Below, one piece after another: positions 53,076-57,699 of a stretch of DNA of 64,000 nt (positions are counted from its first letter, which is position 1; every line of letters starts with the position of its first letter). This DNA is from Armatimonadota bacterium (GTDB lineage Bacteria; Armatimonadota; Fimbriimonadia; Fimbriimonadales; Fimbriimonadaceae), in NCBI GenBank assembly GCA_018268315.1, contig JAFDWU010000001.1, positions 962,324 through 1,026,323 on the forward strand. The letters run 5' to 3'. The notes beneath the pieces are model-generated. The model saw only the letters and a list, made by a program, of their open reading frames with translations. It was not told where the DNA came from and made no database searches. The position numbers and the translations under genes were made by a program.

Positions 53076-53927
53076 CTACTTGCCGCGCACATCATAGCCA
53101 TTCGAGCCGGGGGTCATCACGATGTCCCCTTGCTCGTCGGTGCGTAGAACCGGAACTCTCGCCGCCTCCAGCTTGCGCAGCACCGCGGCATGAGGGTGGC
53201 CGTACCGATTATTGCGCCCGCAGGAAATTACGGCGATACGCGGCGCGACCGCCTTCAGCCACTCGTCGCCGGTGGCAGTTCGGCTCCCATGATGTCCGCA
53301 GTGCATCACGTCCGCCTTCCAATTGCCATCCTGCAACGCCATCTTCTCCGCGCCCTGGTCGGCATCTCCGGTGACCACCGCCCGACCTGCGCCTTGTTGG
53401 ACCAGCATAAGCAGCGACCCCTCGTTATCGTTGCGTCCCTCGCGCCAAGGTGGAGCAAACACCCGGAGTTGAGCATTGCCAAAGTCGAAAGAGGACTCAT
53501 GTGGCAGCCAAGTAACGCTTTCGGAAGGGATATTGGCCGAGCGAAGCTGGTCCTGCAGCTTCTTGTAGCTTCGAAATTGGTCGGAAATCGCCACTTTGGC
53601 ATCCGGGAAGTGTGAGTGCAGGGCGCTTAAGCCGCCGGTATGATCCAAATCGGGATGGGTCAGGACGATGAGGCTAACCGCCTGAACGCCATACCGACGC
53701 AGCGCGGGCACAACGTAACGCTCGCCGGCATCCGTGAACTCGTCCTTAGGGCCGACATCGATGAGGACCGCGCTGGCGCCTTCCTTGATCGCCGTGCAAT
53801 CCCCTTGGCCAACGGAAATGAAGATCAGCTCCTCATCGGCGCCGCTTCCCGGATTCCAAAGCCCGACCCCCGCGCCAATGCCAACCGCGGCGAGAAGGGC
53901 AACTGCTTGCTTATGCAGGACGCGCAT
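53076..53927 (-). CDS. ComEC C-terminal metallo-beta-lactamase part (separate ORF)
   Basis: A 283-aa exported MBL-fold protein. After a short N-terminal hydrophobic segment it has the HxHxDH-type motif LTHPDLDHTGG, plus VLIDVGPKDEF, AVVTGDADQGAEKM and MHCGHHGSRTATGDEW, the conserved order of the ComEC C-terminal domain. In most bacteria this is fused to the ComEC membrane channel, which here is the gene directly upstream, overlapping by 17 bp. Possible role: nuclease acting on the non-transforming DNA strand, as proposed for ComEC. Confidence 0.85.
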   Translation of the reverse strand: MRVLHKQAVALLAAVGIGAGVGLWNPGSGADEELIFISVGQGDCTAIKEGASAVLIDVGPKDEFTDAGERYVVPALRRYGVQAVSLIVLTHPDLDHTGGLSALHSHFPDAKVAISDQFRSYKKLQDQLRSANIPSESVTWLPHESSFDFGNAQLRVFAPPWREGRNDNEGSLLMLVQQGAGRAVVTGDADQGAEKMALQDGNWKADVMHCGHHGSRTATGDEWLKAVAPRIAVISCGRNNRYGHPHAAVLRKLEAARVPVLRTDEQGDIVMTPGSNGYDVRGK

Positions 53928-55197
53928 GCGGCCTCCAGGTTAGAAGCAAACAAAGATAGAAGGCAATCGGCAGGGCGGGATGGAACGCGGGCAAACCGGA
54001 AACCACCATCCCCGGCAGGCCGCCGAGCGCGCCGAGCAGATTGTGAAGGCCAATAAAGATGGGCTCAAATAGCTTGGCGGGCAGCGAAAACAGGCTGAGA
54101 AGCGCGGCGATCGAAAGAAACGGGGCCAAAAAGACGATGCCTGCTGAAATAACCGCCTGAAACAGCGGGACTTGCCCGAACCAGAAGATATAGAGGGGCG
54201 CTATGGCTAAATACACTATTCCTGAGCCCGCCAGCATCCTTGGCAAGCCGTGGAAGCGCGAAAGTCGCGACGCATACAGGCCGAGCGCGGTTAGCGCCGC
54301 CGCGCTGGATTGAAACGAGAATGTGAACGCCCAATCCGGACGATAAATCAAGCAAATGATGCCGCTGAGCGCGAACGCGGACATTAGGTCGGGAACGCGG
54401 CCGATCGATGGCCCGAAGCCGAGGATCATGAACATCAATCCCGCCCGAAGCGCCGTCACCTGGAATCCCGTCATTGCCCAATAGCCGAATAGCAGCACCC
54501 CTGCAAACGCGAGCTGAGCCTTCCAAGGAATAGGAAGCAGCCGAGCAAGCAGCATCGCGCAGTACCCCACCAAATACACGTGCAGGCTCCCTGCGGTTAG
54601 GCGGTTGAAAGGACCCGAGCCTTCTTCGCGCGGCAGAGTCTGAGGAGAGCGAAGCACAAGAGCCTCCGCCATCTCATTGGCGGGTGGCGCCAAGTTGCGA
54701 TTCCACTGCTCTTCCATCCAACCGGGCACATCGGCCGCCCACCTTAGCTGAATGCTTGAATCCGGAACAGGCCGCACCGAAGAAGGATGCCGGATGGTGC
54801 CGCCATACTGGCTAGGCTCATCGGTGTCGCGCGAAAGAATCCCTTCAACCGCCACTTTATCCCCAATCTGTGGGGAATAATCGCCCTCAATAGCGACCTT
54901 AATCCACCCTCCATCGGATCGCAGCGAAACAATCTTCGCAAGATTTGGCGCGCGTTGGGTCACGGCCATCACCATGCCAAGCACCTCGACCCGCTTCGAT
55001 TTCTCCGCCGGCGGATGAGGGCCGATCCAGAGCCCCAATAATCCAAACAGCAAAGCGAAAAGAACCCGCTTATCGAAGACAAAGAGCGCCAACGCAACCA
55101 GCCACAGCGCCGACCACGGGTGATACCAGAGCGTTGAGCCCACCGCCATGGCCGCAAAAGCGGAAACCAAAGGCCGCGCCCGCAGCCAGTCTCTCAT
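53911..55197 (-). CDS. comEC: ComEC/Rec2 N-terminal channel part (separate ORF)
   Basis: A 428-aa membrane protein made of N-terminal helices, an OB-like domain (about 60-150: GWIKVAIEGDYSPQIGDKVAVEGILS) and the competence domain with about eight helices (FNRLTAGSLHVYLVGYCAMLLARL, GFQVTALRAGLMFMILGF). The R-A-x-x-M-x-x-I pattern in the latter is typical of ComEC. The MBL part is encoded separately downstream. It probably forms the DNA-uptake channel in the inner membrane. It overlaps dciA by ATGA. Two full-length ORFs rather than a frameshift are likely because each has its own start and signal. Confidence 0.85.
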   Translation of the reverse strand: MRDWLRARPLVSAFAAMAVGSTLWYHPWSALWLVALALFVFDKRVLFALLFGLLGLWIGPHPPAEKSKRVEVLGMVMAVTQRAPNLAKIVSLRSDGGWIKVAIEGDYSPQIGDKVAVEGILSRDTDEPSQYGGTIRHPSSVRPVPDSSIQLRWAADVPGWMEEQWNRNLAPPANEMAEALVLRSPQTLPREEGSGPFNRLTAGSLHVYLVGYCAMLLARLLPIPWKAQLAFAGVLLFGYWAMTGFQVTALRAGLMFMILGFGPSIGRVPDLMSAFALSGIICLIYRPDWAFTFSFQSSAAALTALGLYASRLSRFHGLPRMLAGSGIVYLAIAPLYIFWFGQVPLFQAVISAGIVFLAPFLSIAALLSLFSLPAKLFEPIFIGLHNLLGALGGLPGMVVSGLPAFHPALPIAFYLCLLLTWRPHARPA

Positions 55198-55598
55198 TGC
55201 TTCTTGAGCCGGCGCTCCGCGAGTTCTTGAATAGATTTGCCCTTCAAAGTTGCACGGTACGCAAGCCGAATCGCCTCGCCCTTGTCTTCTTCATGGGGCT
55301 CCTCGCCACGCTTTTGCTTGACTTCAAATCGCAGGTCCGTGAACAAGTCTTTCTCTTGCGCCGCGGAGTTTAGGCGCTCGATCAGATCAAGTTTTCTTAA
55401 TCGAAGTTCTTGAGACCAAGCCGAGCCGGCAACGGAGATCCAAAGCACGCCTTGGTCATATCGGCTGGGCTGGGCTTTCTCGGCGATGAAATCGCCAACG
55501 ATCGAAGGCCAATTGCGGAGGCAAGCTCCCGCTCGGGCGGCGCGAAGCACCTCAGTGCGATCAATCGCCTTATCCAGCAGTTTGCCCGCGTGCCGCAT
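55194..55598 (-). CDS. dciA: DciA family (DUF721) replication protein
   Basis: A 134-aa protein with the DUF721 core: LRNWPSIVGDFIAEKAQPSRYDQGVLWISVAGSAWSQELRLRKLDLIERLN. DciA is the ancestral helicase operator that helps DnaB load at origins in bacteria lacking DnaC/DnaI. It lies 13 bp after recF, a common neighbour, and overlaps the comEC channel gene by 4 bp (ATGA). The charged C-terminus (KQKRGEEPHEEDKGEAIR) is probably flexible. Confidence 0.88.
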   Translation of the reverse strand: MRHAGKLLDKAIDRTEVLRAARAGACLRNWPSIVGDFIAEKAQPSRYDQGVLWISVAGSAWSQELRLRKLDLIERLNSAAQEKDLFTDLRFEVKQKRGEEPHEEDKGEAIRLAYRATLKGKSIQELAERRLKKQ

Positions 55599-55611: not shown

Positions 55612-56703
55612 CTAATTTCGGCGTACTAGCTTGCCCGCTTCCACTTCAAACGCCACCGCGACTTTCCCTATCGCGTCCCCCACGGCTTCAAGTTCAGTGC
55701 AAGTCAGCAGGGCCTGCGATGCCCGCCGTGAAACCGCTTCCGAAAGCAGCTTGCGACGAGTTGCGTCCAGATCGCTCAGCATGTCGTCCAGCAGAAGAAT
55801 AGGCGGATCGCCAAGCACGTTGGAAGCGACTTCCATGGAACCTATTTGGTAGGCAATCAGCGTCGTTCTCTGCTGCCCCTGCGAGCCAAACAGCCGCACT
55901 TCTTTGCCATCGATCAAAAGCACCACGTCGTCTCGATGCGGCCCCACCGAGGTCCCTCCCCGCGCAAGATCGGCCCGCCGCGCCCCCTCCAGTGCCCGCA
56001 GGAGCTCCTCTGCGCTTGTGGAGGCGTCGCAAGGCGCATAGTTCATCGAAAGGTGCTCGTTACGGCCAATTTCTTCATGAGCTGCCGCCGCAATCGGCTG
56101 CAGGTCCTTCAAATACTGGAGCCGTGCATTCCTCAGCGAAGAACCGTGCTGGGCGATTTCAATCTCCCAAGGCTCCATTTCGGCGGCCGAAGGCATGTAA
56201 TCGCGCTCTTTCAGAAGGGCGTTGCGCTGCTCAACCGCCCGCTTGTAGATCGTCAAATCGCGCAAATAGCTTGGATATAGCGCGCTTAGCGCCAGATCCA
56301 GTGCTAAACGCCGGTCAGCGGGTTCGCCGCGAACGAACGCCAAGTCCTCGGTAGTGATACAAACCGAAGGCAAGCGGCCAAGCAAATCCGCCGCCCTTGG
56401 GAGGTGGTTTCGATTCAATGCCGCTCGCTTGCGGCCGCTCAAAGGAACCGAAATCGAAATATGCGCGCCGTCAAGGAGCTCTCCTTCCACGAATGCAAAT
56501 TCAGCGCCTGATCGAACGACCTCATGATCCTTTTTCCCCCGCAGAATCCGCGTTGTGGAAAGCAAGGCGATCGACTCAAGCAGATTCGTCTTGCCCTGGG
56601 CATTTCGCCCATAAAACACGTTGAAGCCAGGCGCCAATTCAAGGTCCAGATGCTCGTAGTTCCGATAGTTCTCCAGCCGCAGGTGGCTCAGTCCAAAGCC
56701 CAT
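55612..56703 (-). CDS. recF: DNA replication/repair protein RecF
   Basis: SMC/ABC-like ATPase that loads RecA on gapped DNA with RecO and RecR. Of normal length at 363 aa. Walker A is YGRNAQGKTNLLESIALL, the signature region is around GGTSVGPHRDD, and Walker B is PPILLLDDMLSDLD. The N-terminus MGFGLSHLRLENYRNYEHLDLEL is typical. The ATG is followed upstream by a DnaA-box-rich intergenic region; dnaA and dnaN, usual companions, are not next to it. Confidence 0.96.
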   Translation of the reverse strand: MGFGLSHLRLENYRNYEHLDLELAPGFNVFYGRNAQGKTNLLESIALLSTTRILRGKKDHEVVRSGAEFAFVEGELLDGAHISISVPLSGRKRAALNRNHLPRAADLLGRLPSVCITTEDLAFVRGEPADRRLALDLALSALYPSYLRDLTIYKRAVEQRNALLKERDYMPSAAEMEPWEIEIAQHGSSLRNARLQYLKDLQPIAAAAHEEIGRNEHLSMNYAPCDASTSAEELLRALEGARRADLARGGTSVGPHRDDVVLLIDGKEVRLFGSQGQQRTTLIAYQIGSMEVASNVLGDPPILLLDDMLSDLDATRRKLLSEAVSRRASQALLTCTELEAVGDAIGKVAVAFEVEAGKLVRRN

Positions 56704-56993
56704 GCGCTATCCACACCCGGAATTTAAAAAGATAGAGAGATAGAGATCAAGACTACTATTATTCTTAGGGGCAGTCTCCACTGTGGATAACTTCAATCGA
56801 GCCTGAGAAAGCTTAACAAATCCTAAGGTATTTGAATCTACGAAGTGAAGATCAGGTGTTAACTTGGGTGTGGAAAACCATGTGGATAAACCACCGTTAT
56901 GTAGAAGTTTTTGGCAGTGTCTTTTCAACACTGTTTGGCCCTTCGGGATATCCACAATCCATTCACACTCATCTCACAACAACCCGTGGATAC
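56704..56993. other. oriC: Candidate replication origin (oriC) with DnaA boxes
   Basis: In the non-coding gap upstream of recF there are two perfect DnaA boxes, TGTGGATAA at 56782-56790 and 56881-56889, and several one- or two-mismatch boxes: CTATCCACA 56707-56715, TGTGGAAAA 56869-56877, ATATCCACA 56948-56956, and CGTGGATAC 56985-56993 (the last in the RDD gene end). Read on the minus strand, the perfect box at 56790-56782 is followed by a GC-rich spacer and then TAA-GAA-TAA-TAG-TAG (about 56766-56752), matching DnaA-trios, and then an AT-rich tract to about 56720. This is box/GC-spacer/trio/unwinding-region order as in Bacillus. recF-dciA next door supports an origin. Confidence 0.8.
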
Positions 56994-57699
56994 GCCCATA
57001 TTTCATTACCGTAGCTTCCAGCATGAAGATCGGATGGATGCCGGCGGGCTGGGGAACGCCGCGCTTGCGCGCAATCGGCAAATAGACCTCATTGATCATC
57101 TTCTGCTGAACCGCCGCAGGCAGCTCGTAGAACCGATCCGCAAGCTGCTTCAGCGCCACGTATTCGTCGTTCGTCATGCCTCGCAGTTCGCCGACCTGGT
57201 CCTCCATTGCGTGAATTCCTGCCTGATGCGGCGCCACCGCCATGATGTTGGAAGGCTGCCTGACTGAGACCACGACCGTGCCCGCGATGATATCGCCAAG
57301 TCTCTGGCAGCGAGGATTGAGAAATGTGGTGACATAGCCTGCCGCGTAGAATCCGGGAAGGAAGTCTGCCATGCGCATGAGGTTTCGCCCGACCGCCGCG
57401 CCTCCGGTGAGCGGTGTCCCGTCCGCCATTCGTGTCCGGATTCTCAGGGCGAGCTTGCCGATCGTCTTGCCGTTCCACAGCCACTCAAGCAGGATGAAAT
57501 ATAGGAATGGGAACGCGACGAGGACCGGCATTAAGGGAACGATCGTGTTCGTAAAGGCCGCGAGCATGATGAGCGCGGTGAGAATTGCGTAGATAATCAC
57601 CGCATCGATGAGCTGGGCGGCGATGCGGGACCCAAGAGAAGCTAACGGAAGGCTGAGAAGCGCCTTTTCAGGGCTCAATAGGTACAGCTCTTGCGCCAC
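56974..57699 (-). CDS. RDD family membrane protein
   Basis: A 241-aa protein with the RDD domain in residues about 20-150: RIAAQLIDAVIIYAIL contains the R..D pattern of helix 1, and LEWLWNGKTIGKLALRIRTRM and GDIIAGTVVVSV follow. About four helices. The C-terminal 90 residues are soluble and helical (LKQLADRFYELPAAVQQKMINEVYLPIARK). RDD proteins include ion exchangers but mostly lack a known role. The end of the gene holds a degenerate DnaA box. Confidence 0.85.
   Translation of the reverse strand: MAQELYLLSPEKALLSLPLASLGSRIAAQLIDAVIIYAILTALIMLAAFTNTIVPLMPVLVAFPFLYFILLEWLWNGKTIGKLALRIRTRMADGTPLTGGAAVGRNLMRMADFLPGFYAAGYVTTFLNPRCQRLGDIIAGTVVVSVRQPSNIMAVAPHQAGIHAMEDQVGELRGMTNDEYVALKQLADRFYELPAAVQQKMINEVYLPIARKRGVPQPAGIHPIFMLEATVMKYGRIHGLL

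Follow-up and report, generated by a model that had tools for sequence, protein, structure and literature searches.

Gene neighbourhood and DnaA boxes of the recF-RDD gap

The window, i.e. the whole 64-kb stretch of DNA that was analysed (G000:C1:962324-1026323), belongs to a 2.8-Mb genome in nine contigs. The candidate origin is the gap between recF and the gene of an RDD-family membrane protein, at positions 56704-56993, with a GC content of 42%. On one side lie recF (55612-56703, minus strand; TIGR00611, 307 bits against a cut-off of 172) and dciA (55194-55598, minus strand; PF05258, 58.4 bits against a cut-off of 24), and these curated models agree with the preliminary description, made from the letters of the DNA, in which both genes adjoined the site. 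The RDD-family protein forms the other boundary (56974-57699, minus strand; PF06271, 67.4 bits against a cut-off of 24.1). The 15 listed relatives of RecF included Fimbriimonas and other Armatimonadota, as well as three from Firmicutes and one whose record bears the label of an archaeon MAG. A ComEC-like protein was apparently split into two overlapping open reading frames (53076-55197, minus strand); the Competence domain was found in one of them, and the C-terminal part of the pair is presumably hydrolase-like. Rfam and tRNA scans yielded nothing useful.

Of the DnaA boxes in the gap, two are perfect, three carry a single mismatch and two carry two. The whole window has two perfect and nine one-mismatch boxes, and its top 290-bp clusters all fell in the gap; the clustering within about 290 bp that had been described beforehand is thus the densest of the window. 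When a looser family box score was applied (threshold 8 of 10), the gap gave seven boxes per 290 bp, compared to a maximum of four elsewhere in the window and a maximum of six in 500 background stretches of 3.5 kb. The DnaA box cluster that belongs to an oriC was accordingly found here.

All individual boxes were located by the box search. The proximal perfect box is R1-like and lies at 56782-56790 on the minus strand. A distal tandem pair on the same strand consists of TTTTCCACA, with one mismatch and 87 bp from the proximal box (56869-56877), and the second perfect box, 12 bp beyond it (56881-56889). Further out are the weak two-mismatch box TTTTCAACA (56922-56930, plus strand), the one-mismatch box ATATCCACA (56948-56956, plus strand) and a two-mismatch box at 56985 (minus strand); inverted outer boxes also occur in the family consensus. 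At the far side, next to recF, the one-mismatch box CTATCCACA (56707-56715, plus strand) faces back into the unwinding zone. Two conserved elements unrelated to DnaA boxes lie between these, both on the minus strand: a GATTCAAA-type element with the family consensus TTTnAATTCAA (56829-56841) and the AAACTTCTACA element, also given as AAACTTNTACA (56900-56910), which with one mismatch or less was present in 14 of 59 family loci, as compared with 16 of 1180 shuffles.

Conservation in the family and in the phylum

Regions upstream of recF were taken from 60 of the 78 family genomes with a recF match, and 59 remained after one at a contig edge (L028, G003) was dropped; duplicates of genomes already in the set (L034-L044 and L047) had been removed before the counts. 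Counts given below for 57 loci exclude those that scored less than 14 bits with the full profile and those whose flank was too short. A 40-bp profile of box, spacer and triplets was evaluated by leaving out one genus at a time, and loci above the 99% shuffle level were considered to pass. These amounted to 47 of the 59 regions, in 24 of 26 genera, while 12 loci failed; the cross-validated number supersedes the count of 58 of 59 obtained with the self-trained profile.

A model of the whole gap, R1, with 295 positions and 26 training sequences, matched the window at 56702-56993 on the minus strand (129.5 bits, E 2.8e-39), a score that is not independent, as the window copy is among the training sequences. 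It was the single match in its own genome. At E 0.1, 71 of 85 family genomes had a match, and 63 of the 71 best matches were directly upstream of recF; with the training genomes left out, 37 of 45 best matches adjoined recF. Eleven family genomes with recF gave no R1 match. The element thus occurs once in its own genome and is conserved in relatives, as belongs to an oriC. In two family genomes of 1.5 Mb a weaker match (E 2e-7) was kept, at G060:C6:66039-66246 and G061:C7:342005-342187, and no recF was detected there at E 1e-10.

Across the phylum, 94 of 291 genomes matched R1 at E 0.001, and matches outside the family were weak. Such weak matches were situated next to recF in G150, G153, G172 and G129, near dnaA in G086, G093, G102, G103 and G174, between dnaA and recF in G149, and on the 5' side of dnaA in G270 and G271. 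In a genus of a sister family (f3, g41; e.g. G163:C1:2138764-2138890), origin-like box clusters were near neither recF nor dnaA.

The putative opening zone and its strand polarity

The AT-rich unwinding zone (DUE) occupies 56716-56768 and is the second least stable duplex in 64 kb by a 40-bp scan, so that an unstable AT-rich zone stands adjacent to the boxes, as in an oriC. A GC-rich spacer of 13 bp (56769-56781, minus strand) separates it from the proximal box. Read on the minus strand, the order is TTATCCACA, 14 nt of GC-rich sequence, TAAGAATAATAGTAG and the AT-rich tract, which is the order given in the preliminary description. The TAAGAATAATAGTAG triplets (56753-56767, minus strand), which that description took for trios, form a period-3 TAR pattern conserved in relatives. 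A search for a box with one mismatch or less, a 10-16 nt spacer and at least five NAN triplets on the box strand gave the site as the sole instance in 446 kb of sampled sequence from the same genome, and none per 64 kb in ten shuffled windows.

The likeness to Bacillus did not hold for the strand. The box strand continues CTACTACTATTA or CTATTACGATTA in three control loci from Firmicutes, and the trios (3'-GAT-5') therefore lie on the complementary strand, whereas TAA-GAA-TAA-TAG-TAG here lies on the TTATCCACA strand. The Staphylococcus and Siminovitchia loci served as polarity controls only and stand outside all counts. In the Bacillus polarity, the same tract (56745-56768, plus strand) reads 3'-GAT TCT TAT TAT CAT CAG AAC TAG-5', with TTATT at 56759-56763. 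The criterion for the basal unwinding system (BUS), as set out in the part of PMC8287927 used here, demands a box with at most two mismatches, a spacer of at most 16 bp and, on the complement of the box strand, three or more 3'-NAN-5' triplets in a row that start within 16 bp; the commonest spacer is given there as 13. The proximal box has no mismatches and stands 13 bp from the first GAT. In the strict sense the triplets deviate, since GAT and TCT come before the first run of at least three triplets with central A, which starts 19 bp from the box, whereas the published limit is 16. Read in the correct polarity, the tract can be called trio-like if a central C is tolerated.

A true DnaA-trio BUS of the B. 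subtilis type, with the proper polarity, is an alternative for the opening step; it concerns the mechanism at the level of strands and leaves the identity of the site as an origin untouched. We regard it as a serious possibility, though with the odds somewhat against it. The spacer of 13, the first triplet 3'-GAT-5' and the central A in seven of eight triplets speak for it, and the one central C is of a kind tolerated in B. subtilis trios, according to the cited portion of PMC10721633. The DnaA of this genome keeps the B. subtilis residues I190, R202, R206, F218, K222, R264 and L269, with K in place of R321, as counted by hand on the alignment; single-strand binding residues of a BUS-type DnaA, I190 and K222, are thus conserved there. 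Against these points, the published criterion in the Bacillus polarity was found in 24 of 57 loci, compared to 15 of 57 when the sequence beyond the box was shuffled once, and conservation is higher at the third-position T than at the central A. In the polarity of the preliminary description, 51 of 57 loci passed, as compared with 25 of 57 when shuffled.

TTATT on the T-rich strand was present in 31 of 57 loci, with a shuffle mean of 10.2 and a maximum of 16. An R1 box facing the DUE, a spacer of about 13 bp and a TTATT-type motif on the T-rich strand, which together make up the E. coli R1-DUE pattern, were all found at the site. Because of the polarity comparison and the TTATT counts, we regard the E. 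coli R1-DUE as the nearest match to the putative opening zone, which has a longer run of triplets. The oriC of E. coli K-12 shares with the window the box 5'-TTATCCACA, the 13-bp spacer and TTATT on the T-rich strand, and its R1 trio strand, GAT TAT TCT, has the same polarity as GAT TCT TAT in the window; neither origin is next to dnaA. The window differs from it in its neighbours (recF and RDD, not mnmG and mioC), its longer triplet periodicity, the facing box that closes the DUE, and distal boxes paired in tandem at about 88 and 100 bp. The B. subtilis BUS (oriC2/incC), as described in parts of PMC6669920 and PMC8287927, has in common with the window the proximal box, spacer, triplets and, on the same side, a group of distal boxes; the differences are that the TAA/TAG triplets in the window occupy the other strand with respect to the box, that there is a single clear proximal box, and that the origin is away from dnaA and dnaN.

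In the 57 loci, the commonest distances of the distal tandem boxes from the proximal box were 87-90 and 99-103 bp. The helical phasing of these boxes is only suggestive: after collapsing to 13 lineages, the Rayleigh p value was 0.047 at 10.5 bp, and other periods fitted equally well or better. In B. subtilis, the distal box acts via a phased loop, as reported in the cited part of PMC6669920.

An opposite-facing DnaA box 48-56 bp from the triplet start was found in 38 of 57 loci and in 0-2 of them in each of 20 shuffles, while no forward-facing box occurred in the same 48-56 bp interval in any of the 57. The facing box was 50.3 bp from the triplet start of the DUE (SD 1.26 bp); its distance to the aligned recF start had an SD of 19.7 bp. 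Both SDs refer to 39 loci in a slightly wider interval, and the aligned first RecF residue is a stand-in for the true start codon. As far as the alignments can tell, the putative opening zone is bracketed by two facing DnaA boxes at a fixed distance, which is a new feature. Thermotoga maritima also has TTATT and trio-like motifs in one DUE, together with an inverted box; as presented in the consulted part of PMC10316083, its box sequence is different, and the inverted box is in the box cluster and not at the far side of the DUE.

The bracketing raises the doubtful proposal that the zone is worked from both sides, with two DnaA assemblies that converge and could hold one strand each, which would place helicases symmetrically on both strands. 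The TAA/TAG strand, which is wrong for the proximal box, is right for the facing box at the far side, and TAA/TAG triplets are the sequence captured by B. subtilis DnaA. Two-sided opening, if true, would contrast with the published models considered, in which DnaA loads from one side. The aligned set, with its facing box locked to the unwinding zone, could be used to test capture of the second strand for helicase loading.

The probable origin at recF and its separation from dnaA

We interpret the recF-RDD gap as the place where this Fimbriimonadaceae-type bacterium has its chromosomal replication origin (oriC), located at recF and detached from dnaA, with a probability of about 0.9, because of the box cluster, the low duplex stability, the family conservation upstream of recF, the location of dnaA and dnaN elsewhere, the partial agreement of the GC skew and the B. 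subtilis residues kept in DnaA. The probable chromosome origin of the preliminary description is supported. DnaA, supplied from a gene on another contig, would bind the tandem pair at 56869-56889 as well as the proximal box at 56782, and its oligomer would extend across the 13-bp spacer and open the AT-rich zone at 56716-56768. It would hold the T-rich plus strand, as at the E. coli R1-DUE, and the facing box at 56707 would close the opening zone at a fixed distance.

That the gap is instead a DnaA-controlled promoter region of recF seems very improbable, even though the gap immediately precedes recF, with the far-side box a short way ahead of the start of that gene, and contains three promoter-like matches, as compared with a shuffle mean of 0.7. 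The spacing of the far-side box is constant relative to the DUE and not relative to recF, the weaker match persists in the two genomes with no recF found at E 1e-10, and R1 matches nowhere else in its own genome.

GC skew was sampled along contigs and is not complete. The preliminary description had expected a change of sign at the site, and this was seen in two relatives, faintly in a third, and contradicted in another. In G063 the switch lay between 740 and 746 kb, with the element at 743.8-744.1 kb. In G080, after correction for gene orientation, it lay between 1872 and 1900 kb, with the element at 1887.3-1887.6 kb and the opposite switch at 470-600 kb; uncorrected, 1864-1884 kb was already positive. 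The skew of G053 was weak, and its best-fitting switch (680-800 kb) was above the site at 459 kb, which fitted nearly as well (0.0159 versus 0.0166). F. ginsengisoli (G007) gave a jagged sampled skew with no usable signal, and its authors likewise reported an uninformative skew, according to the cited part of PMC4072686. The strong skew of G077 (about 0.25) was negative through 2646-2666 kb and positive at 2793 kb, at least 32 kb off the degenerate recF-side element at 2634 kb; this could be explained by a recent inversion beside the origin or by an origin shift, possibly within one genus. The window's own contig was compatible, with positive skew to about 340 kb, negative skew at 400-960 kb and values of about zero around and after the site, 28 kb beyond which the contig ends.

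The site is on contig C1, dnaA on C2 and dnaN on C3, so of the proposed trio-type origin detached from dnaA the detachment is supported; the trio architecture as in Bacillus is not supported as stated, the triplets being on the other strand. An origin between dnaA and dnaN is also very improbable. Such a location was put forward for F. ginsengisoli at 5.13 Mb on the basis of the skew and a single box at 5.20 Mb (in the part of PMC4072686 used here). A dnaA- or dnaN-proximal origin was rejected despite the skew disagreement in G077: no DnaA box cluster was found at the own dnaA or dnaN locus, the element was absent from 30 family dnaA loci (of 82 genomes with a dnaA match; best profile score 15.3, compared to 26.7 at the site), and F. 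ginsengisoli itself has the element at 1,929,619-1,929,905 (E 1.1e-38, as a training sequence). This suggests that the F. ginsengisoli origin may be at 1.93 Mb and not at the published 5.13 Mb.

The phylum-wide positions of the matches, at recF, at dnaA, between them or at neither, fit the break-up of a putative ancestral dnaA-oriC-dnaN-recF cluster. An ancestral dnaA-oriC-dnaN-recF-dciA cluster likely broke up and lost dnaA and dnaN, so that the origin would have been left at recF after both had moved away. In Synechococcus elongatus, dnaA and dnaN are likewise separate and the origin stays with a replication gene; there it was kept beside dnaN, as stated in the cited part of PMC7198777, and not beside recF as in the window. 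A literature search, with supplements and databases such as DoriC outside its scope, gave no Armatimonadota origin paper besides PMC4072686. The Armatimonadota would gain an origin that can be tested; for the first complete Fimbriimonadia genome, the published origin was a weak guess, judged from the consulted part of that paper.

At G000:C2:627661-627680, two perfect DnaA boxes stand in tandem, 11 bp from one another, upstream of a gene for a 336-aa Hda/DnaA-like AAA+ protein (L079:1319-2329, plus strand). They were rejected as a rival origin, as they stand alone upstream of this gene and match no model. The protein scored 53.5 bits with the Hda model, below its cut-off, and is possibly a DnaA-controlled regulator of DnaA.
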